Shown one piece after another: positions 12,912-49,200 of a stretch of 64,000 nucleotides of DNA. The first letter of the stretch is position 1, and every line of letters begins with the position of its first letter. A program made the position numbers and the translations under genes. Source of the DNA: Imbricaverruca yamaguchii (Eukaryota > Arthropoda > Thecostraca > Neoverrucidae). The notes below the pieces were generated by a model, which was given only the letters and a program-made list of their open reading frames with translations, did no database searches and was not told the origin of the DNA. The stretch lies in contig JAOTOL010001219.1 in NCBI GenBank assembly GCA_034440575.1, positions 186,001 to 250,000 of the forward strand, given 5' to 3'.

Positions 12912-15638
12912 GGGGCATTCCACGACAAATCGACATGTGACCTGCACCCTCACATCTCAGATTTTGATGAAAATGGTTCTATAGGGTTATCAGCATCGCT
13001 GAACACGCCTGTGCCATTTTGAAGTCTCTTAGGTTTACCGTTTTCTAGTTATGAACTATATAATTTTTACATTTTGCACTGTCATGACTATCTTTGGTGC
13101 TAATTTTCTCTGAGTCATTTTTCAGTAACTGAACAAATTTATACGTCAAAATGAAGACAAAACATTGAAGAATATGACTATGCCACCATTTAAACTTTCA
13201 TTACGTAATTTTTGCCGACTCTAGCCAAATAAAAAATTGAAAAGAAATAAAAACATTTTTCCCCTCCGTTATCGTAATTTTTCTCCCTTTCATATGAAAG
13301 AGTGTAGTTTTTTACCCTAGAAACATAAATAAAAAAAGTGGTTATCGACTTGGAAAGACGAATCAAATGCGGTGAATGCGGGCGCTGCGCTCACCGGACC
13401 GGCGCGCGCGCTGCCGCTGCCTCGCGATACGCCTGCCGGGGGGAGGGGGAGGGGAAGGGGGAGCCAAGCGTGGGATGTCAAGAATATGTCCTGGAAAAAA
13501 GACTATGTGACGGTAAGAGATGAGAATGGGGTTAAAGTAAAGAAGCAGAAACGTTTGATTTTAGGTAATTTGCAGGAAATTTACCAACTTTATAAAGAGA
13601 ACGGTAGCAACCCGCGCATTGGGTTTTCTAAGTTCGCCAGCCTCCGCCCCAAACACTGTGTCCTGTTGGGAAGCAACGGCACTCATACGGTTTGTGTATG
13701 TTGCTATCACCAGAACGTTAAGCTAATGTTAGCGTCTCTGGGCTTAAAAGACATTACCTACAAGAACCTGTTGAAGCACGCGGTTTGTGATGTCGGGAGG
13801 GAAGCCTGTATGCTGCAAAAGTGTGAAAACTGTCCAGGTCAGGACGGTGTCAGGTCATATTTGATCGACACTTTAAATGCGCAGGCAGGGGAAATCTCAG
13901 ACTTGGTGGACGAAGTCAGATTTAGTCAGTGGCTAAGCACGGATCGTTGCACTTTGACCGAAATTGTTCTTCCTATGGACGAGTTTCTTGACAAACTGTC
14001 TGACGCCATTGTGACACTTACTCGGCATCATTTCACGAGTCAGCATCAAAGCAAATATTTCGACGATCTAAAAAAGCAGCTACCTGAGCATGAAGCACTG
14101 ATCATATTATATTTTTCAGAAAACTACACTTTTGTAGTTCAAGACGAAATTCAGTCATATCACTGGAACGCACCACAGTGTACCGTTCATCCGTTTGTTG
14201 TTTATTGGCGAGAGGCTGGAAAGATTGAATGCCACAGTTTTGCGTGTTATCAAACGAACTGAAGCATGACACCGTCGCTGTGCACACATTCTTGCAGCAC
14301 ATTGTACCGAAAGTGAAAGGCATAGTCCCGAACTTGAAAAAGATTCATTATTTTTCGGATGGGTCAGCTGCCCAGTACAAGAATAAGTTTAATTTCGTGA
14401 ATGTGAGTTTTCATGATGAGGATTTCGGAGTCCAGTGCGATTGGAATTTTTTTGAAACGTTGCATGGGAAAAAAAATCGTGCAACGGTGTTGGGGGTACA
14501 CTGAAAAGGGTTGCAGCTAGCGCCAGTCTTTCGCGGACACACTCGGACCACATTCTTACTGCGGAAAAGCTATGTAAAGTGCTACAGGACAAGGGTAATT
14601 TGCATACCGAGTGCTACTTTGTAGCGAAAGAAGAGGTTAGTCGTACACGGCATGAGCTTGGCGATAGACTGTCAATGGCAAAAACTGTCAAAGGGACTCT
14701 AAAAATACACAGGGTAACTCCAGTGAAGGCAAACATTGTCGTTGTGCGAGAACTTGCCATAAGTGAAGGAAGAGAAGTGATGGTGGCCTGATTTGCTACA
14801 GGATTTAGGTTGAATGGTTAGCGTGACCTACATCGGCAGCTGATTTCCGTTTGTTTATGTGCGAATTACAATGTGAAGTGAGCTAATGTTAAGTTATGCA
14901 TTTTGTACCTCTGATAAGGCTCATTGTACCATCTCGTTAGCATTCGCAAATGTACATGTACTTTCCGGCATGTTATTTGTGTGAATAACAAATGAAGTGC
15001 TAAAACGTCCTGCCTGGTGTTTATAAATAATCTGCAGTGTCCTCTCAATCCCACGGGGCCGCGGACGACAGCCGCCAGCACCCCTATCCCCCGTTGGCAG
15101 CAGCTGGCCGCGGCCGTTGCTGAACGACGCCGTATTGGGTAAAATGAGGCCGGGCGGTTGGTGTTTGAAATTATGTTTAAAATATTTATAAGCCGATAAC
15201 CACTTTTTTTATTGATGAAATATAGGTAATAATCAACGCTCTTTCATTAAAAAATATCAAAAATCACAATATCGAAGGGGAAAATTTATCAAGAGAACTT
15301 GGCATTTTTTTAAGTGTTATATTTGACATATATTTAATTGCTATGGTTTCGATAGTGATAAACGTTCATTCTGCATGGGATTGCAATCATTTTGATGTAC
15401 AAACTCACCTACTTATCATTCAATGTAGCAGGGATAAATCCTGCCAAACAAAGCCATGTATGCATCGAATGTAAAAATGTCGCAGGCTGTAGCTCGAAAA
15501 CCGGAAGTCGGAGGGGCCTGAAAATGTCACAGGCGTGTTTAGGGCTGCTGATAACCCTATAGACTCATTTTCATCAAAATCTGAGATGTGGGGGTGCAAA
15601 ATCGAAATTTTATTTGTCGATCTGTCGTGGAACGCCCC
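12912..15638 (+). mobile_element. DNA transposon with long (about 440 bp) TIRs
   Basis: The ends GGGGC(A/G)TTCCACGACA at 12912 and its reverse complement ending at 15638 form an imperfect long inverted repeat (about 12912-13352 and 15189-15638). Within it, AGTGGTTATCG near the inner edges and CAGATTTTGATGAAAATG near the outer edges pair well. AGTG flanks both ends (12908-12911 and 15639-15642), consistent with a 4-bp target duplication, but the host array is itself repetitive so this is not certain. Between the TIRs lies a transposase-like gene. The element sits cleanly inside a 24-bp minisatellite, so it inserted after the array formed. Confidence 0.85.
13372..14791 (+). pseudogene. Transposase-like protein of the long-TIR element, two frameshifts
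   Basis: Three reading frames join into one protein of about 430 residues. The first runs from about 13486 (likely start MSWKKDYVTVRD) to about 14240, the second from 14229 to about 14480, and the third from about 14480 to TGA at 14789-14791. Recognisable blocks are IGFSKFASLRPKHCVL, a Cys/His stretch CVCCYHQNVKLM, CENCPG, YFSENYTFVVQDEIQ, DTVAVHTF, YFSDGSAAQYKNK and a DWNFF block. From memory, these blocks occur together in a family of uncharacterised, multi-copy proteins of many invertebrate genomes, where the Y of YFSENY is usually D. If so, a likely acidic residue is lost here. The A8 run at about 14469-14476 may explain the second frameshift. I cannot assign a named superfamily. Confidence 0.7.
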
Positions 15639-16382: not shown

Positions 16383-16565
16383 CGCTTGTCGGTGTATGCT
16401 CCACAGCCGTCGTGTCTGCCGGTGTATGCTCCACAGCCGTCGTGTCTGCCGGTGTATGCTCCACAGCCGTCGTGTCTGCCGGTGTATGCTCCACAGCCGT
16501 CGTGTCTGCCGGTGTATGCTCCACAGCCGTCGTAACTGCCGGTGTATGCTCTACAGCCGTCACCA
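16383..16565. repeat. 30-bp minisatellite, 6 copies, just upstream of a CaMKII exon
   Basis: The unit is GTCGTGTCTGCCGGTGTATG followed by CTCCACAGCC. Each unit contains CCGGTGT...CACAG, which resembles the real acceptor CCGGTGTTTCAG at 16595-16606. The array ends 41 bp before the exon. Confidence 0.95.
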
Positions 16566-16606: not shown

Positions 16607-16661
16607 TCCGGCTACACGACAGCATACAAGAGGAGAGCTTCCACTACCTCGTCTTCGATCT
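16607..16661 (+). CDS. CaMKII: CaMKII exon (kinase N-lobe, VRLHDS...VFDL)
   Basis: This 55-bp internal exon of calcium/calmodulin-dependent protein kinase II encodes the hinge-proximal part of the kinase N-lobe. The acceptor is TTTCAG at 16601-16606 and the donor GTGAGT starts at 16662. It enters in phase 1 (TC completes a Val codon) and reads RLHDSIQEESFHYLVFD, then leaves two bases of the next Leu codon (CT). The peptide matches the conserved CaMKII segment, and I recall the homologous mammalian exon also being 55 bp. No upstream exon carrying the glycine-rich loop or catalytic Lys was found between 1 and 16600, so the preceding intron starts outside the window. Confidence 0.93.
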
Positions 16662-17490
16662 GTGAGTGGCCGACGAATCGGCATGCTGGATGGATTCAGC
16701 GCCGGTTATGGCTGGGCCACAAGGTCAACTCTATTTCCGGATTTGTCTAGGGCGCAAATTTATCCTGGTAGTCGACGCGCTCTTGCGCTCCAATTCGTTA
16801 TCATCCATGTGTGGATTTGGGGCAATGGCTAAGCCATAGAAAGTCTGTGGACGTAAATGTACGGTTGGTATTTTTTAGAGCGGCTCGACCTAATCCGCCT
16901 AAGACGTGTGCTGCGTCCAAGATTGAAATCGAGCCAATCCATGGGTGAAGCGTGAGTTGCATCTTAAGCGTGTTGGCAGCCTGTGATACGAATCATCTTA
17001 AGGATTGTTCGCACCTTGCGTAATCTCGACGCACTGTCGGAATAGACGCAAAGCTAGCGACCAGTTAGCATGGGGCCCAATGAGTGCCGATTCTGCCATT
17101 GCGCCTGCCTTGCGTCAGCTGTCTGCCGAGCCCTACAAATCGCTGGCGATTTCCGAGTGGACAGAGTTGGGTTTTGTCAGCTTTTTTTCCGCTCGGCGCA
17201 CCAGCGGCCTTGCGCAGGGTCGACAGACCGCCCGGGATAAGCTGTGGTCGCCATATTTGCTGATCTTCGGCAGATTGTGACCACATCGGCTGCGTTTTCA
17301 GCTTGTAAGTTGCAACACGTCTCAACGTGTGCGTCGGGATTACGCCTAGTCCGTCACTGCGATGGCTTTTTTGCGTCGAGCTTACGCCAGGTGTGAACAG
17401 TCCTTTAAGCGTGTGGACTGACTGCGGTGGGAATCACTTTCCATGTACCCATCGACATATTGGGCTGTGCCAATTGAACGAATACTGCGT
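16662..17490. other. CaMKII intron sequence, no other feature seen
   Basis: This is unique sequence after the donor at 16662. The open frames at 17005-17280 and 17327-17605 have no recognisable domain. Confidence 0.6.
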
Positions 17491-17501
17491 CTGCCTCCCG
17501 T

Positions 17502-17668
17502 TAGTTGGTTGGTTGTTTGCTTTTACGACACATCGACCGTTGAGTCATGTAGCGTCGCCAATCTCTCTCGCCGATTGGTCGCGGGCGAAGAATAGCGACA
17601 GGTGAGAATCGAACCCACAACCTTTTGATTGCGAGACGATCAACTTGCCCCTAGACCACTTGGCCCCC
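17502..17668 (-). mobile_element. SINE-A copy, reverse orientation, with target duplication
   Basis: Read on the minus strand it has a tRNA-like head (A-box region GTGGTCTAGGGGCAAGTTG, B-box GGGTTCGATTCTCACCTGTC), the body CGACCAATCGGCGAGAGAGA, and a 3' tail ending in CAAACAACCAACCAACTAAC. It is flanked by an 11-bp direct repeat CTGCCTCCCGT (17491-17501 and 17669-17679), the hallmark of target-primed insertion. Confidence 0.9.
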
Positions 17669-18109
17669 CTGCCTCCCGTGTGTGTCCCGTGTCATTTCTG
17701 CTGATCCCGTAAATGTCTTACCGCGCATGCGCAATGAGGCGAGTGGCTGACATTAAATGACATTTTATGCAGGGTACGCTTTGCTTAGTCGTGGCATTAG
17801 ACAACTCATGTTCTGAGATGTTACGATTCCCACAGCCGGAGCTACGATTCCCACAGCTTCTACGGCACGCTTGGCAATGCAGCCGCTCTTCCTTCCACAC
17901 CAGCGATCGTGGTGTCAATTCAGTTGCGGAAGTCTAACGAACCTAACGACGGATGTAGCCAGGCCCACCCGCCCCAGCACCTAACTGTGTCCGGTTGGCT
18001 AATGTTGACGCCGCCGATGCTGCGCCGTGACCCATGTGTAGCCTCGCTACAGCCAGACTGCACTCTGTATGGATTTGGTATAAATGCTGATACACCGTGC
18101 TTTTAAGCT

Positions 18110-18334
18110 TAGGCATGTGACGGTAAGCATGGCCAGATAATGTATTGTTACACTTAGGCATGTGACGGTACGCATGGTCAGATAATGTAGTATTACGCTT
18201 AGACATGTGACGGTAGGCATGGCTAGACAATGTGTTATACCACTTCGGCCTGTGACTGTAGGCATGATAAAATAATGTATTAGTACACTTAGGCCTACGC
18301 CAGCTGACATGGCCAGACAATGTGTTAGTGCAGA
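18110..18334. repeat. 45-bp tandem repeat, 5 degenerate copies
   Basis: Units start at 18110, 18155, 18200, 18245 and 18290 with TAGGCATGTGACGGTA-GCAT and continue GGCCAGATAATGTATTA. The last two are the most diverged. Confidence 0.9.
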
Positions 18335-18389
18335 AACCATTACCCGTGTTGTAGCCCATACGGTGTCCATGCCACCACCCATGTTGTAG

Positions 18390-18554
18390 GGGACGAGTAG
18401 CCTAGGGGTAAGTTGCTCGTCTCACAATCGAAAGGTTTTGGGTTCGAGTCTCACCTGTCGCTACTCTTCGCCCGTGACCAATCGGCGTGAGAGATTGGCG
18501 ACGCTGCATGACTCAACGGTTGATGTGTCGTAAAAACCAATAACCAACCAACAA
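18390..18554 (+). mobile_element. SINE-A copy, full length, with 15-bp target duplication
   Basis: This is a tRNA-derived SINE. The head has A-box TAGCCTAGGGGTAAGTTGC and B-box GGGTTCGAGTCTCACCT. The body is CCAATCGGCGTGAGAGATTG, and the tail is GCGACGCTGCATGACTCAAC then GGTTGATGTGTCGTAAAAAC, ending in CAATAACCAACCAAC. The flanking direct repeat CCACCCATGTTGTAG is exact (18375-18389 and 18555-18569). Pol III promoter boxes are intact by eye. Confidence 0.93.
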
Positions 18555-18606
18555 CCACCCATGTTGTAGCCCATACTGCTACCATTACCTCACCCGTGTT
18601 GTAGCA

Positions 18607-20020
18607 CACGTGTGCGACGGGTGGTGACTTGTGTCTCGCCTGCCACCAGTGTGACGGGTGGTGACCATTGTCTCGTCTGCCATCAGTGTGACTGGTGGTG
18701 CCCTGTGTCTCGCCAGCCAGGTGGTGACCTGTGTCTCGCCTGCCACCAGTGTGACTGGTGGTGCCCTGTGTCTCGCCTGCCACCAGTGTGACTGGTGGTG
18801 CCCTGTGTCTCGCCAGCCATCAGTGTGACTGGTGGTGCCCTGTGTCTCGCCAGCCAGGTGGTGACCTGTGTCTCGCCTGCCACCAGTGTGACGGGTGGTG
18901 CCCTGTGTCTCGCCTGCCATCAGTGTGACTGGTGGTGCCCTGTGTCTCGCCAGCCAGGTGGTGACCTGTGTCTCGCCTGCCACCAGTGTGACTGGTGGTG
19001 ACCTGTGTCTCGCCTGCCACCAGTGTGACTGGTGGTGCCCTGTGTCTCGTCTGCCATCAGTGTGACTGGTGGTGCCCTGTGTCTCGCCAGCCGGGTGGTG
19101 ACCTGTGTCTCGCCTGCCATCAGTGTGACTGGTGGTGCCCTGTGTCTCGCCAGCCAGGTGGTGACCTGTGTCTCGCCTGCCACCAGTGTGACTGGTGGTG
19201 CCCTGTGTCTCGTCTGCCATCAGTGTGACTGGTGGTGACCTGTGTCTCGCCTGCCACCAGTGTGACTGGTGGTGCCCTGTGTCTCGCCTGCCACCAGTGT
19301 GACTGGTGGTGACCTGTGTCTCGTCTGCCATCAGTGTGACTGGTGGTGCCCTGTGTCTCGCCAGCCAGGTGGTGACCTGTGTCTCGCCTGCCACCAGTGT
19401 GACTGGTGGTGACCTGTGTCTCGTCTGCCATCAGTGTGACTGGTGGTGACCTGTGTCTCGCCTGCCACCAGTGTGACTGGTGGTGCCCTGTGTCTCGCCT
19501 GCCACCAGTGTGACGGGTGGTGACCTGTGTCTCGTCTGCCATCAGTGTGACTGGTGGTGCCCTGTGTCTCGCCAGCCGGGTGGTGCCCTGTGTCTCGCCT
19601 GCCATCAGTGTGACTGGTGGTGCCCTGTGTCTCGCCAGCCAGGTGGTGACCTGTGTCTCGCCTGCCACCAGTGTGACTGGTGGTGACCTGTGTCTCGCAT
19701 CAGTGTGACTGGTGGTGACCTGTGTCTCGCCTGCCACCAGTGTGACGGGTGGTGACCTGTGTCTCGCCTGCCACCAGTGTGACAGGTTGGTGCCCTGTGT
19801 CTCGCCTGCCACCAGTGTGACGGGTGGTGACCTGTGTCTCGCCTGCCACCAGTGTGACGGGTGGTGACCTGTGTCTCGCCAGCCGGGTGGTGACCTGTGT
19901 CTCGCCTGCCACCAGTGTGACTGGTGGTGCCCTGTGTCTCGCCTGCCATCAGTGTGATGGGTGGTGACCTGTGGCTCGCCTGCCATCAGTGTGACTGGTG
20001 GTGACCTGTGTCTTCTCTGC
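18607..20020. repeat. 37-bp minisatellite derived from the adjacent CaMKII exon boundary
   Basis: About 40 units (hand count) of CCTGTGTCTCGCCTGCCACC followed by AGTGTGACTGGTGGTGA, mixed with a 26-bp deletion variant containing GCCAGCCAGGTGGTGA. The unit matches the real intron-exon junction at 20009-20045: the pyrimidine-rich end of the intron, CAG, then the exon bases TGTGACTGGTGGTGA(A/C)CTGT. The last repeat runs directly into the true acceptor. See findings. Confidence 0.97.
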
Positions 20021-20026
20021 CCTCAG

Positions 20027-20165
20027 TGTGACTGGTGGTGAACTGTTTGAAGACATAGTCGCCCGCGAGTTCTACAGCGAAGCGGACGCGTCTCACTGCA
20101 TCCAGCAGATTCTGGAGTCTGTCAACCACTGTCATCTGAACAGCATTGTCCACAGAGATCTCAAG
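20027..20165 (+). CDS. CaMKII: CaMKII exon (VTGGELFED...HRDLK)
   Basis: This 139-bp exon encodes the start of the kinase C-lobe up to the catalytic loop. The acceptor AG is at 20025-20026 and the donor GTAACG starts at 20166. T completes the Leu codon left by the previous exon, then 46 codons read [20 protein letters not shown]...[21 protein letters not shown], ending in phase 0 after the Lys. HRD is the catalytic-loop motif with the catalytic Asp at 20155-20157, and the Lys of DLK is the usual partner. In mammals, as I recall, this stretch is divided into exons of 66 and 73 bp, which also total 139. The HLNSI segment before VHRDLK is variable among CaMKII proteins. Confidence 0.96.
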
Positions 20166-30193: not shown

Positions 30194-30304
30194 GTGATCG
30201 AGTGCTGTGTATGTTCCTGCGACTGATGTGTGTGCTGTGTGTGTTCCTGCGACTGATCGAGTGCTGTGTGTGATCCTGCGACTGATGTGTGTGCTGTGTG
30301 TGGT
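30194..30304. repeat. 29-bp repeat, about 4 copies, abutting a CaMKII acceptor
   Basis: The unit is GTGCTGTGTGTGTTCCTGCG followed by ACTGATCGA or ACTGATGTGT. The final partial unit, GTGCTGTGTGTGGTTCTCAG, is itself the 3' splice site of the next exon. Confidence 0.9.
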
Positions 30305-30310
30305 TCTCAG

Positions 30311-30413
30311 CCGGAGAACCTGCTGCTGGCCAGCAAAGCGAAGGGCGCCGCCGTCAAGTTGGCCGACTTCGGACTGGCGATCGAGGTGCAGGGCGAGCAC
30401 CAGGCCTGGTTCG
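30311..30413 (+). CDS. CaMKII: CaMKII exon (PENLLL...DFG...HQAWFG)
   Basis: This 103-bp exon encodes the rest of the catalytic loop and the activation-segment start. The acceptor is TTCTCAG, ending at 30310, and the donor is GTGAGT at 30414. It enters in phase 0 and reads [20 protein letters not shown], then [14 protein letters not shown] plus one base (G) of the next Gly codon. The N of PEN is the metal-binding Asn, and ADFG carries the metal-binding Asp. The length equals my recollection of the mammalian exon (103 bp). [21 protein letters not shown] is the invertebrate CaMKII form. Confidence 0.96.
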
Positions 30414-32290: not shown

Positions 32291-32845
32291 ATCGGTCGTC
32301 CATAGTGGATCTGCGTGGATTTGGAGCATGGCTTCAGGAATTAGGGTGAGGTTTACACAGCCGGAGTTGAGCTTTCAGTTATTATCCGAACAGTAATTCA
32401 ACGACGCAAACTATCTGTTGCGGCATAATGGTATTTGCGAAAAACAGGTAGTGCATGCTGAATAACCGATATATTACCTAGCACACGATATCGCGTTACA
32501 ATATCGCGTAATCACATCAATCGCACCGCATATTTTCACCGAATTTCACCATATTTTCGCTCTGCCTCCTGCATATTTTCACCGAATGAACGACACTTGG
32601 TGCTGGAATCATGGTAAACGCAGCTAGTCAGATTAATTCCCTATACACCCCGTTTAGACCCTGATTAGGCCCCAGCAAAATTCGGCATCCTCCATTCATA
32701 TGGATCGTTGGTTATTCAAGGACGTGCCGCTTCGATTGTGGTACAACACTGGCGTTGGAATCTGTCGGTCGTACTCTGATTATAGCAGTACATACTTAGC
32801 AATGCATGCAAATGTCGTAGATGCCGTCGGTGAAAATGGGCTGGC
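32291..32845. other. CaMKII intron, no gene recognised
   Basis: This is AT-rich unique sequence. A short direct repeat (GCATATTTTCACCGAAT, about 32528-32546 and 32571-32588) is the only structure noticed. Confidence 0.6.
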
Positions 32846-35800
32846 CTTGGGTGGGTTGTGGTAGGATGTGGTGGACCAGGGCTGGCCGTGGGCGGGTTGT
32901 GGTAGGATGTGGTGGACCAGGGCTGGCCGTGGGTAGGTTGTGGTAGGGTGTGGTGGACCAGGGCTGGCCGTGGGTAGGTTGTGGTAGGGTGTGGTGGACC
33001 AGGGCTGGCCGTGGGTGGGTTGTGGTAGGATGTGGTGGACCAGGGCTGGCCGTGGGTGGGATGTGGTAGGGTGTGGTGGACCAGGGCTGGCCGTGGGTAG
33101 GTTGTGGTAGGGTGCGGTGGACCAGGGCTGGCCGTGGGTAGGTTGTGGTAGGATGTGGTGGACCAGGGCTGGCCGTGGGTGAGTTGTGGTAGGGTGTGGT
33201 GGACCAGGGCTGGCCGTGGGTAGGTTGTGGTAGGGTGTGGTGGACCAGGGCTGGCCGTGGGTGGGTTGTGGTAGGATGTGGTGGACCAGGGCTGGCCGTG
33301 GGTAGGTTGTGGTAGGGTGGGGTAGGGTGTGGTGGACCAGGGCTGGCCGTGGGTGGGTTGTGGTAGGGTGTGGTGGACCAGGGCTGGCCTTGGGTGGGAT
33401 GTGGTAGGGTGCGGTGGACCAGGGCTGGCCGTGGGTGAGTTGTGGTAGGGTGTGGTGGACCAGGGCTGGCCGTGGGTGGGTTGTGGTAGGGTGTGGTGGA
33501 CCAGGGCTGGCCGTGGGCGGGTTGTAGTAGGGTCCGGTGGACCAGGGCTGGCCGTGGGTGGGTTGTGGTAGGGTGTGGTGGACCAGGGCTGGCCGTGGGT
33601 GGGTTGTGGTAGGGTGGGGTAGGGTGTGGTGGACCAGGGCTGGCCTTGGGTGGGATGTGGTAGGGTGCGGTGGACCAGGGCTGGCCGTGGGTGAGTTGTG
33701 GTAGGGTGTGGTGGACCAGGGCTGGCCGTGGGTGGGTTGTGGTAGGGTGTGGTGGACCAGGGCTGGCCGTGGGCGGGTTGTGGTAGGGTGCGGTGGACCA
33801 GGGCTGGCCGTGGGTAGGTTGTGGTAGGGTGTGGTGGACCAGGGCTGGCCGTGGGTGGGTTGTGGTAGGGTGGGGTAGGGGTGTGGTGGACCAGGGCTGG
33901 CCGTGGGCGGGTTGTGGTAGGGTGCGGTGGACCAGGGCTGGCCGTGGGCGGGTTGTGGCAGGGTGCGGTGGACCAGGGCTGGCCGTGGGCGGGTTGTGGC
34001 AGGGTGTGGTGGACCAGGGCTGGCCGTGGGCGGGTTGTGGTAGGGTGTGGTGGACCAGGGCTGGCCGTGGGTGGGTTGTGGTAGGATGTGGTGGACCAGG
34101 GCTGGCCGTGGGTAGGTTGTGGTAGGATGTGGTGGACCAGGGCTGGCCGTGGGTGAGTTGTGGTAGGGTGTGGTGGACCAGGGCTGGCCGTGGGCGGGTT
34201 GTGGTAGGATGTGGTGGACCAGGGCTGGCCGTGGGTGGGTTGTGGTAGGGTGTGGTGGACCAGGGCTGGCCGTGGGTGAGTTGTGGTAGGGTGTGGTGGA
34301 CCAGGGCTGGTCGTGGGCGGGTTGTGGTAGGGTGTGGTGGACCAGGGCTGGCCGTGGGCGGGTTGTGGTAGGGTGTGGTGGACCAGGGCTGGCCGTGGGT
34401 GGGTTGTGGTAGGGGTGTGGTGGACCAGGGCTGGCCTTGGGTAGGTTGTGGTAGGGTGTGGTGGACCAGGGCTGGCCGTGGGTAGGTTGTGGTAGGGTGT
34501 GGTGGACCAGGGCTGGCCGTGGGTGGGTTGTGGTAGGGTGTGGTGGACCAGGGCTGGCCGTGGGTAGGTTGTGGTAGGGTGTGGTGGACCAGGGCTGGCC
34601 GTGGGCGGGTTGTGGTAGGGTGTGGTGGACCAGGGCTGGCCGTGGGCGGGTTGTGGTAGGGTGTGGTGGACCAGGGCTGGCCGTGGGTAGGTTGTGGTAG
34701 GGTGTGGTGGACCAGGGCTGGCCGTGGGTAGGTTGTGGTAGGGTGTGGTGGACCAGGGCTGGCCGTGGGTAGGTTGTGGTAGGATGTGGTGGACCAGGGC
34801 TGGCCGTGGGTGGGTTGTGGTAGGGTGTGGTGGACCAGGGCTGGCCGTGGGTAGGTTGTGGTAGGATGTGGTGGACCAAGGCTGGCCGTGGGTAGGTTGT
34901 GGTAGGGTGTGGTGGACCAGGGCTGGCCGTGGGTAGGTTGTGGTAGGATGTGGTGGACCAGGGCTGGCCGTGGGTGGGTTGTGGTAGGGTGTGGTGGACC
35001 AGGGCTGGCCGTGGGCGGGTTGTGGTAGGGTGTGGTGGACCAGGGCTGGCCGTGGGTGGGTTGTGGTAGGATGTGGTGGACCAGGGCTGGCCGTGGGTAG
35101 GTTGTGGCAGGGTGTGGTGGACCAGGGCTGGCCGTGGGTAGGTTGTGGTAGGATGTGGTGGACCAAGGCTGGCCGTGGGTAGGTTGTGGTAGGGTGTGGT
35201 GGACCAGGGCTGGCCGTGGGTAGGTTGTGGTAGGATGTGGTGGACCAGGGCTGGCCGTGGGTGGGTTGTGGTAGGGTGTGGTGGACCAGGGCTGGCCGTG
35301 GGTAGGTTGTGGTAGGATGTGGTGGACCAGGGCTGGCCGTGGGTAGGTTGTGGTAGGGTGTGGTGGACCAGGGCTGGCCGTGGGTGGGTTGTGGTAGGGT
35401 GTGGTGGACCAGGGCTGGCCGTGGGCGGGTTGTGGTAGGGTGCGGTGGACCAGGGCTGGCCGTGGGTGGGATGTGGTAGGGTGCGGTGGACCAGGGCTGG
35501 CCGTGGGTGGGTTGTGGTAGGATGTGGTGGACCAGGGCTGGCCGTGGGTGGGTTGTGGTAGGATGTGGTGGACCAGGGCTGGCCGTGGGTGGGTTGTGGT
35601 AGGATGTGGTGGACCAGGGCTGGCCGTGGGTGGGTTGTGGTAGGGTGTGGTGGACCAGGGCTGGCCGTGGGTGGGTTGTGGTAGGGTGTGGTGGACCATG
35701 GCTGGCCGTGGGTGGGTTGTGGTAGGGTGTGGTGGACCAGGGCTGGCCTTGGGTGAGTTGTGGTAGGGTGTGGTGGACCAGGGCTGGCCTTGGGCGGGTT

Positions 35801-36932
35801 GTGGCAGGGTGTGGTGGACCAGGGCTGGCGTGGGCGGGTTGTGGTAGGGTGTGGTGGACCAGGGCTGGCCGTGGGTGGGTTGTGGTAGGGTGTGGTGGAC
35901 CAGGGCTGGCCGTGGGTGGGTTGTGGTAGGGTGTGGTGGACCAGGGCTGGCCGTGGGTGGGTTGTGGTAGGATGTGGTGGACCAGGGCTGGCCGTGGGTG
36001 GGTTGTGGTAGGATGTGGTGGACCAGGGCTGGCCGTGGGTGGGTTGTGGTAGGGTGTGGTGGACCAGGGCTGGCCGTGGGTGGGTTGTGGTAGGGTGTGG
36101 TGGACCAGGGCTGGCCGTGGGTGGGTTGTGGTAGGGTGTGGTGGACCAGGGCTGGCCTTGGGTGGGTTGTGGTAGGATGTGGTGGACCAGGGCTGGCCTT
36201 GGGTGGGTTGTGGTAGGATGTGGTGGACCAGGGCTGGCCGTGGGTAGGTTGTGGTAGGATGTGGTGGACCAGGGCTGGCCGTGGGTGGGTTGTGGTAGGG
36301 TGTGGTGGACCAGGGCTGGCCTTGGGTGGGTTGTGGTAGGATGTGGTGGACCAGGGCTGGCCGTGGGTGGGTTGTGGTAGGGTGTGGTGGACCAGGGCTG
36401 GCCGTGGGTGGGTTGTGGTAGGGTGTGGTGGACCAGGGCTGGCCGTGGGTGGGTTGTGGTAGGGTGTGGTGGACCAGGGCTGGCCTTGGGTGAGTTGTGG
36501 TAGGGTGTGGTGGACCAGGGCTGGCCTTGGGCGGGTTGTGGCAGGGTGTGGTGGACCAGGGCTGGCGTGGGCGGGTTGTGGTAGGGTGTGGTGGACCAGG
36601 GCTGGCCGTGGGTGGGTTGTGGTAGGGTGTGGTGGACCAGGGCTGGCCGTGGGTGGGTTGTGGCAGGGTGTGGTGGACCAGGGCTGGCCGTGGGTGGGTT
36701 GTGGTAGGGTGTGGTGGACCAGGGCTGGCCGTGGGTGGGTTGTGGTAGGGTGTGGTGGACCAGGGCTGGCCTTGGGTGGGTTGTGGTAGGATGTGGTGGA
36801 CCAGGGCTGGCCGTGGGTGGGTTGTGGTAGGATGTGGTGGACCAGGGCTGGCCGTGGGCGGGTTGTGGTAGGGTGTGGTGGACCAGGGCTGGCCGTGGAT
36901 AGGTTGTGGCAGGGTGTGGTGGACCAGGGCTG
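32846..36932. repeat. 41-bp G-rich minisatellite, about 100 copies (4.1 kb)
   Basis: The unit is GACCAGGGCTGGCCGTGGGT followed by GGGTTGTGGTAGGGTGTGGTG. The same positions vary repeatedly (GTGGGTGGG/GTGGGTAGG/GTGGGCGGG, AGGGTG/AGGATG, CCGTGG/CCTTGG). The minus strand has no stop in any frame of the unit, giving a spurious open frame of 1394 codons (32796-36980) with a 41-residue period; it is not a gene. A block near 35729-35929 recurs at 36466 onward, and a CCAAGGCTGG variant recurs exactly 287 bp (7 units) apart. Confidence 0.98.
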
Positions 36933-37012
36933 GCGTGGCCTCTCCTGTACCCGCGGATCGGCGGGGCCCGTATGCAACAACGGGTGTTCCCGCAGGAGTC
37001 AGCTGAGCGCTA

Positions 37013-39031: not shown

Positions 39032-40871
<1,840 letters not shown>

Positions 40872-46289: not shown

Positions 46290-49200
46290 ATGCCCTCTTT
46301 CGTTTTACAGTGGAACATGCGTGGTTTTAGAGCCAATTTTACTGACCTTCAGGCTGTTTTATCTCAGCGAAATCCCGCCGTTGTCTGTCTCCAAGAAACC
46401 AAGCTGCCGCCTGGGGCCTGTTGCTCACTAAATAGGTACTCAGTATTTCGCAAAGACATTCCGACTGTTACAGTGACACATGGTGGAACCATGCTGGCGG
46501 TACACAAGAGCGTACCTGCGCGTCAGGTTACTCTGCTCACATCACTGCAGGCAGTTGCTACCCGGGTGACCTTCGGCGATCGTCCAGTAACCCCCTGCTC
46601 ATTATACCTGCCCCCTGGGCTTTCTCTCCCCTCTGTAGAGCTTGGACGTTTAATGTTAGAACTCCCGCCGCCAGTTCTACTCTTAGGCGATTTTAACTGT
46701 CATCACTCAGCCTGGGGCTGTAACACGACCAATACCCGTGGAAGACTATTCGAACGTTTTATTCATGCCGAGTTGTTGTTTCTTTTAAATACAGGCTCGC
46801 CCACGTATTTTACTTCACCTTCCGGAAGCACATCTGTTTTAGACCTGAGCCTCTGCTCCCTACAACTGGCGGAACATTTTACCTGGTCCGTAGACAACGA
46901 TCCGCTGGGAAGCGACCACTTCCCCGTGTGGTTGGAATACCAAGCTGGACCTGTCCTTGGCACGAGGTCTCGGAGGTGGAACCTCCGAAAAGTTGACTGG
47001 GGTGAATTGAAGGCGAAATTAGAGGAGAAGTTCACTCCCATCAACGACTCTCCACCTACGGGGGCTACTTTTACAGCTAGAATACTCGAGGCAGCCACCA
47101 CATGTATCCCGTTAACCTCTGAGTCTCCCCATCGTACCCCAGTCCCGTGGTGGACTCCTGAGTGCCGGGAGGCCATCCGTGCCCGTAAACAAGCCTTTCG
47201 AGCCTTTGACCGTCGAAGCACAACAGTCAATATGATAGCATTTATGAAAGCCAGAGCATACGCTCGTAGGACTGTTAGTGAGGCCAAACGGAATTCGTGG
47301 CAAAAGTACGTCGGAGGCTTCACTTCATCCACCTCCTCAAAGGAGGTGTGGTCGCGAATAAAGCGTATATCCGGTAAATTATGTTCTGCCCCGTTGCCTG
47401 TCCTACAAGTAGCAGGTCGTAACATTACACACACAGCTGAGGTCGCGAGTGAATTTGGTCACACGCTATACCAACGAAGCAGATCCGGGAATGATCACCC
47501 CAAATTCCTGCGTCATCGGTTCCAGAGCGAGAAAATTACGTTACAGTTTTCCACATATAAACGGCTGGCATATAACGATCCCTTCACAAAGGCAGAGTTA
47601 GCATCAGCAGTTCTTTCTCTGCGTGAAGTGTCTGAGGGTCCTGATAAAATACATGATGAAACGCTGCGTCACTTGCCACCTTGTGCCCAGCACGTTCTGG
47701 TGTCCACGTTAAATTCGCTTTGGAAAACCGGAAAGTTCCCGGCAGCCTGGCGACAGGCCACTGTTATTCCACTCCTGAAACCCGGGAAGGATGGAAAGGA
47801 TCCTCTTCACTACCGTCCTATCTCGTTAACATCTTCGCTATGTAAGCTGATGGGAAAAAATGGTGAATGTCCGGCTTATCTTGGTATCTGGAGGACAGAA
47901 AGATTTTAGTAAATTCTAAGTGTGTTTTTAGGAAAAATCGCTGTACGATCGACCGTCTTATCACCCTTGACACTGACATACGTGCTGCTTTTATAAGGAA
48001 GCGACATGTTGGAGCTGTCTTTTTTTACATTGAGGGCGCATTCGACACAACATGGCGCCATGGCATACTTATAAAAATCCATGAATGCGGTCTTCGTGGC
48101 CCGCTAGCTTTCTTCCTTCAAAACTACCTAAAAGATCGTCTGTTTAGAGTCCGTGTTGGCAACCATTTCTCTGGCTGGTTCCGGCAGGTGAATGGAGTGC
48201 CTCAGGGCGGCGTGCTTAGCGTTCCTGTGTTTTCCCTCCTCATTAATGATATCGGCAGTACGTTTCCACCAGCTATCTGTAGCTCGTTTTTTGCCGACGA
48301 CTTCGCTATTTGGACGTCGAGCGCCTCATCACCCACACTACAAAGGCAGCTATAGCTTGCTGTCTCCCTCTTGGAACGATGGGCAAACGCAAGGGGCTTC
48401 CGTTTTTCAGCGGGAAAAACTGTAGCCATGCATTTCTGTCGGCGTTAAGGCTGTCAGAACGTGGAGATCATGCTGTATAAGTCACAAATTCCTACGAGAC
48501 CGGTGGTTAGGTTTCTTGGTGTTATGTTTGACTCTCGCCTAACATATCGGGACCATTTTAAAATGCTCCGTGACAAGTGTTTTAAAACGCTGAATATACT
48601 TAAGGTGATTTCACGTACATCATATGGTGCCGACAGACTCACATTGCTGCTTTTATATCGATCTTTAATTCGTTCTAAGCTTGACTATGCGTGCTTTGTG
48701 TATGACTGTGCATGTGCAACAGCCAAGCGAACACTGGACACCATTCATCACACTTCGCTACGTATCGTTACCGGCGCATTTCGCACGTCACCGGCAGTAA
48801 GTCTTTTAGCAGAGATAAACGAGCCCAGCCTTGCTATGCGTCGCGAATTGCTTGGGATGCGCTATGCATGCAAGCTGCGGCAGTTTCCCGAACATCCCAC
48901 ATATCGGTCACTATTTTCCCGACGTATACTTGCTCTGTTCAGAGGGAGACGACTGGGAACATCGATTCGACTGTGTGAGGATCCGCACCCTCTTCAAGAA
49001 TAGCGCCATACGCTTGAGTGGAGTGCTGCGTGTGGATTCTCTAAAAACCCTCCCTGGAGATTGGTCTCCAGATATTGATCTATCACTGGCACATATGAGA
49101 AAAGGTCATGCTATTCCTGCAGAACTCAAGCTCAGAGCACTGGAACTTATTTCGTCCTACGGAGACTACACATCGACCTATACGGATGATTCCAAAACGG

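Follow-up and report, generated by a model that had tools for sequence, protein, structure and literature searches.

How did an intron of a conserved kinase gene come to hold dozens of copies of its own 3' splice site, and do these copies matter to the cell? The question arises in the window, the 64-kb stretch of barnacle DNA analysed here as part of contig C986, in which four CaMKII exons were located on the + strand with tblastn, namely E4 (16607-16661, 55 nt, VRLHDSIQEESFHYLVFDL, with the first base of the V codon in the previous exon), E5 (20027-20165, residues 93-138, i.e. 46 residues ending in HRDLK), E6 (30311-30413) and E7 (40600-40683). The exon boundaries were read by eye and are supported by the open reading frame that runs across all four exons when they are joined. 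The intron between E4 and E5 (16662-20026, + strand) carries a 37-bp minisatellite that, according to TRF, occupies 18612-20046 (+ strand) with 41.6 copies, which corrects the start at 18607 given in the original prediction. As that prediction held, the unit joins the end of the intron to the beginning of the exon: a full unit comprises 17 intron bases and the first 20 coding bases of E5, and its alignment with the exon junction extends over the whole 37 bp and not over a few bases.

Cutting the array at its GGTGGTG core gives 41 units, in addition to the core within the exon itself, of which 30 are 37 bp long, nine 26 bp, one 32 bp and one 38 bp. Apart from the nine 26-bp units, which are scattered along the array and have no acceptor, every unit (32 in all) contains CAG|TGTGA, and the last of these is the true acceptor. 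The predicted figure of about 40 acceptor copies exceeds that of the decoy 3' splice sites (CAG directly before TGTGA), which number 31 and extend over 18647-19989 on the + strand, with the first decoy exon base at 18650 and the last at 19990. The true junction at 20010-20046 reads GTCTTCTCTGCCCTCAG|TGTGACTGGTGGTGAACTGT, and its polypyrimidine tract and acceptor GTCTTCTCTGCCCTCAG (20010-20026, + strand) have the top score among the 32 junction copies. In an ungapped comparison with this junction, the decoys are identical at 23-33 of the 37 positions, with 25 of the 31 at 30-32. At three positions all 31 agree with each other and not with the true copy: they have G for C at -12, A for C at -5 and C for A at +16.

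The unit was found in this gene only. All 19 scored matches of the 37-bp unit in the 767-Mb assembly, a count to be read as a lower bound, lie inside the CaMKII array, so that the same array was not seen at unrelated loci. Within the 64-kb window, no 20-mer outside the array came within 4 mismatches of the first 20 bases of the exon on either strand; the best match in 20 mononucleotide shuffles, searched on the + strand only, had 6 mismatches in 15 cases, 7 in two, 5 in two and 3 in one. An Rfam scan of the DNA gave no match, a tRNA scan gave one tRNA-Val and nothing relevant to the array, and the open reading frames inside the array are mechanical products of repetition with nothing relevant among them. 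The observation of a junction-derived minisatellite in CaMKII is confirmed. It is very improbable that the array is a product of assembly and is absent from the animal or wrong in length. Minisatellites are hard to assemble and the real copy number may differ, but the units differ from one another at many positions, those of 26 bp are dispersed through the array, and several unrelated genes on other contigs have different units at their own junctions.

We read the array as a 'mirage' minisatellite, which arose by tandem duplication of the intron-exon junction and whose decoys are normally ignored, and we put the probability of this reading at roughly 85%. A segment with the intron end and the first 20 coding bases would have been duplicated in tandem, and the copies on the intron side would then have expanded, presumably via unequal exchange or slippage. 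The outermost junction would have been kept in use, its sequence held by selection on protein and splicing; the inner copies, meanwhile, would have drifted and spread as a group. Since all 31 decoys share G, A and C at the three positions at which the true copy differs, the inner units seem to have been homogenised among themselves, to the exclusion of the edge copy. On its left side the array starts in the exon-derived part of the unit, and because of this the endpoints and the mechanism of the first duplication cannot be read from it. A 4-base homology at the unit ends was dropped as evidence on the mechanism, as the preceding bases are necessarily the end of the previous unit.

The direction from exon to array, also part of the original prediction, is supported as the simpler one by comparison with other CaMKII genes. 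The genome has a second CaMKII gene on contig C1152, which differs from that of the window at many synonymous sites and was treated as a paralogue, not an allele. The protein segment VTGGEL at the start of E5 is present in all four CaMKII proteins fetched (barnacle-type), and the paralogue encodes it in other codons (AGTGACGGGCGGCGAGCTC) and has no acceptor array within 1.5 kb of its exon 5, where a donor array of 62 bp and 4.0 copies is found instead. There is little to recommend the opposite order, in which the minisatellite came first and gave the exon its opening bases, or converted their synonymous sites. The true copy being itself a unit of the array, inner units could in principle convert the edge of the exon, and the left edge of the array, too, starts in exon-like sequence; against this stand the conserved protein segment, the different codons of the paralogue and position +16, at which 31 of 31 decoys have C whereas the A of the exon makes a conserved Glu codon, so that conversion has not overwritten the exon at that base. 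In the related species Pollicipes pollicipes, two annotated CaMKII isoforms and a second CaMKII read straight through the junction-spanning segment at the level of the proteins; the window gene differs from these annotated proteins in QGEHQ (QGEQQ in P. pollicipes) and RRINTAEAL (RRINATEAL), which speaks against P. pollicipes as the source of the DNA. Either one CaMKII gene acquired the array after the duplication, or the other gene lost it. Barnacles are reported to have undergone a whole-genome duplication (PMC11331182, in the part of the text available), which may be the source of the two genes.

Mirage minisatellites have been described from amphioxus, in Adh3, troponin C, the globins BflGb6 and BflGb9, and PGBD5 (PMC3087553, PMC3902484), and the CaMKII array has every testable feature of that description as given in the accessible portions of these papers. 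In both cases tandem units of minisatellite length (here 37 bp in 41.6 copies) span an intron-exon boundary (here with 17 intron and 20 coding bases), and both 5' and 3' exon boundaries are affected, with arrays at 5 acceptor sides and 8 donor sides in the 88 barnacle exon matches sampled. In addition, the inner units of the amphioxus globin mirages are reported to be homogenised with the edge unit spared (PMC3087553), which is matched by the three differences common to the 31 CaMKII decoys. The barnacle, in contrast, is an arthropod, and its 31 decoys compare with 3 and 6 units in two BflGb6 haplotypes, its 37-bp unit with units of 10-72 bp in Adh3 and 150-160 bp in BflGb6, according to the same portions; normal splicing and a copy number that is unstable between alleles belong to the description of the amphioxus mirages. 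Junction arrays, moreover, occur at about one in ten of the barnacle exon matches sampled. Other systems are less close, as far as the excerpts of the respective papers go. Internal tandem repeats in human segmental-duplication genes likewise expand over exon-intron boundaries and can create introns (PMC2812944), but these are recent duplicates with an often altered transcript, while the conserved kinase exon of the barnacle appears intact. Intron gain by duplication of an AG/GT proto-splice site (PMC2891723, PMC3087553) also involves tandem duplication across a splice signal, but barnacle CaMKII has no sign of a new intron and an existing one was lengthened. Ordinary intronic minisatellites share the unit length and the common variants, and for one in C. 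elegans a connection with alternative splicing is reported (PMC4039745), but the CaMKII unit includes an acceptor and coding bases. A prawn lectin family (PMC7536079) was set aside, since its excerpt describes coding tandem repeats with alternative acceptors and not a junction array. Among the matches listed from the open-licence literature, as titles and abstract openings, 'mirage' arrays were found only for amphioxus and none for a barnacle or other arthropod, and the word minisatellite is absent from the main text, in the form available, of the barnacle genome papers PMC8917513, PMC8270832 and PMC11331182. As far as seen, the array is thus of a known kind, with a new phylum, many copies and a high frequency.

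The frequency was taken from a sample of exons chosen regardless of repeats, which comprised CaMKII and other kinases (best 30), myosin heads (best 30), tyrosine phosphatases and ion channels, the last two contributing 40 short loci, namely the first 20 in each list whose match did not exceed 350 bp. Of these 100 exon loci, 12 with matches longer than 450 bp were left out; the flanks of the remaining 88 were 1.5 kb, 450 bp or 300 bp, and some of the 40 short loci are neighbours in one gene. A side was scored positive if a copy of the match edge that spans it by 10 bases on each side lay within 450 bp. By this rule, 11 of the 88 matches carry a junction-spanning array, at 13/176 sides (5 at acceptors, 8 at donors); outside both CaMKII genes the figures are 7 of 80 matches and 8/160 sides. 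An earlier scan of 60 loci had 12 positive, among them L069, which fell short of the 10-base/450-bp rule. The myosin exon L066 ends in CAG|GTGAGG, followed by 19 further canonical donor copies; at the phosphatase exon L074, TCT|GTAAGT has seven further copies, two of them with GTGAGT and the last cut by the end of the stretch, and at the phosphatase exon L077, AAG|GTCAGT has eight, six of them unchanged. L085 and L105 have acceptor arrays at true junctions. The exon for residues 230-277 (L026, L027) has an acceptor array in both CaMKII genes, with units of 43 and 66 bp, and the two are apparently independent events. L052, L054, L056 and L057, four of the 12 positives in the scan of 60 loci, resemble duplicated myosin exons and were left out of the junction arrays: a myosin-exon copy lies 1.0-1.3 kb away with 93% identity at L056 and L057 (contig C1272), and the identity is 84% at L054 (C1274). 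The pairs at L054, L056 and L057 resemble mutually exclusive muscle myosin exons.

Junctions are not hot spots for such arrays, an idea that we rejected because control points carry arrays more often than junctions do. At points away from exons, arrays are present in 18 of 96 cases in the locus flanks and in 71 of 293 in the window, compared with the 13/176 junction sides (Fisher p 0.008 and 2e-6) or with the 8/160 sides outside CaMKII (p 0.0009 and 5e-8); the control points, which are not proven to be non-coding, were set at fixed offsets, 1000 bp from the exon match in the flanks and every 200 bp away from exons in the window. TRF arrays cover 27% of the window, and those with a period of at least 10 cover 25%. 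Each of the four exons in the window has an array no more than about 50 bp away, and only that of E5 spans the junction: one at 16390-16561 lies about 45 bp upstream of E4, a 30-bp array at 30202-30302 (from 30191 in an alternative 59-bp reading) stops 9 bp upstream of E6 without spanning the junction in the 10-base test, and a 33-bp array at 40710-40791 begins 27 bp downstream of E7. Since the controls exceed the junction rate, the arrays at junctions appear to be a side effect of very active minisatellite formation and not to be targeted to junctions. A deficit at junctions is as expected if some arrays disturb splicing, but its size should not be over-read because the coding side may be less repeat-prone, the matches are partly non-independent and the window was picked for its repeat.

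What the decoys would do if used can be read in silico. In the spliced four-exon sequence, all 31 are in the right phase, as predicted, and each leads to a premature stop. The 16-residue peptide that was to precede this stop fared less well: nine of the 31 decoys stop at the predicted place and none yields the exact peptide, which is a consensus reading of the units. Splice sites were scored with a matrix built from 51 acceptors and 55 donors of the same genome, themselves chosen with a generic consensus. The E4 donor, CT|GTGAGT, scores 5.4 and the true E5 acceptor 10.25; the decoys range from 4.6 to 8.6 with a median of 8.0, close to the median of 8.3 for the training acceptors, and score as ordinary acceptors. 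Phase, stops and scores would all fit functional decoys that tune CaMKII output through premature stops and nonsense-mediated decay, as would the C. elegans intronic minisatellite, which is enriched beside alternatively spliced exons according to the available part of that report (PMC4039745). Under an 8-base rule, junction arrays are also present at 7 of the 42 sides of 21 CaMKII exon matches (3 acceptor and 4 donor sides, in six exons), a set from which the opposite-strand hit C986:139316 was left out and in which some CaMKII exons were not found. Eight of the 21 are also among the 88, with the exon of L019 counted as that of the window. Leaving out the window exon, 3 of 7 CaMKII matches in the set of 88 are positive, compared with 7 of 80 others (p 0.03), a higher rate that is a weak point for something special about the gene. 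However, the paralogue has a donor array and no acceptor array at exon 5, so that the decoy element is not conserved between the gene copies. Similar arrays are found at myosin, tyrosine phosphatase and ion-channel exons, the junction rate is below that away from exons, and most insertions of intron-like sequence would give a stop. The idea of a device specific to CaMKII is not supported, given the arrays at 7 of 80 exon matches of other genes, which affect acceptors and donors and are rarer than those away from exons. Regulation by nonsense-mediated decay via the decoys is possible and not needed by any finding, and we consider it improbable.

If the decoys are normally ignored, as the mirage reading has it, the question becomes how the true site is told from its copies. 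At E5, none of the 31 decoys reaches the score of the true site, which might suggest decoys weakened by selection. As a general rule this was rejected, since in several arrays canonical decoys equal or exceed the true site. They do so in 13 of 16 cases at the L026 acceptor, 2 of 2 at L105, 1 of 2 at L085, 3 of 3 at L020, 1 of 2 at L042, 1 of 1 at L060, 19 of 19 at L066, 6 of 6 at the L074 donor and 6 of 7 at L077, and in none of 4 at the L074 acceptor and none of 1 at the L026 donor; at L033 and L069, 2 of 2 decoys each equal or exceed the true donor, and the sole donor copy at E7 of C1152 has lost its GT. At the paralogue exon for residues 230-277, five of six decoy acceptors agree with the true one at each of 25 intron bases and score within 0.1 of it; four of these five also match over the next 6 bases. 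If splicing there uses the true site alone, local acceptor strength cannot be what decides in general. Even at E5, strength does not single out the true site, since other AGs inside the units (CGCCAG|CC) score up to 10.8. Given decoys equal to the true site in several arrays, the choice of splice site probably depends on exon context. The true acceptor alone joins directly to a full coding exon with a donor, and exon definition would pick it, aided at E5 by the better pyrimidine tract. Usually, splicing takes the AG that comes first after the branch point. Since the array fills the whole stretch between 18612 and the true AG, this would place the branch point of the true site within the array, probably in the last repeat. 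Stepwise removal of the intron through a zero-length exon motif, CCAG|GTGGTG, after the short units is scarcely credible: six of the nine 26-bp units end in CCAG|GTGG, but the likeness is confined to the motif, and the other three as well as the 37-bp units lack it there.

How the spliceosome chooses between equal sites is classically studied with duplicated splice sites. The barnacle genome offers this as a natural experiment on about a tenth of the sampled exon matches, with 31 extra acceptors at E5, 19 extra canonical donors at L066 and, in several arrays, decoys whose score equals that of the true site, and RNA of the animal would tell which of the three, position, exon context or site strength, settles the choice. 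Junction arrays are also a substrate from which introns may grow or be gained and exons may shift. Here we speculate, as an unlikely extension, that junction arrays may affect thousands of exons genome-wide, each with a series of nearly identical decoys in phase, and that their copy number may vary between individuals and alter how much is made from genes like the two CaMKII paralogues, in which case the choice among identical splice-site copies would be a heritable and rapidly mutating dial.

Other repeats and mobile elements were seen in the window and beyond. The intron between E6 and E7 holds a G-rich 41-bp array of 99 copies over 4.1 kb (32838-36938). A DNA element at 12912-15638 has 24-nt terminal inverted repeats that are 92% complementary, is flanked by AGTG on both sides as judged by eye, and lies inside or at the edge of a 48-bp minisatellite sequence; its open reading frame at 13372-14262 matched no Pfam family at E 0.001. 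An open reading frame at 322-1755 encodes a DDE_1 transposase, and those at 46290-48352 encode an endonuclease and a reverse transcriptase as in a non-LTR retrotransposon. A dispersed tRNA-like repeat, recognised by eye in both orientations at 18387-18555 and 17490-17670 of the window and near 400-600 of L020, is probably a SINE. Finally, a COX1 sequence (L071, contig C996, 270910-272247) has an identity of 97% to the cluster named for Leucolepas longa and of 91% to those named for Balanomorpha, Scalpellum and Lepas, which points to a thoracican barnacle. It contains 12 TGA codons and is open in the invertebrate mitochondrial code; on a contig of more than 270 kb, it is a recent nuclear copy or marks a chimeric contig.
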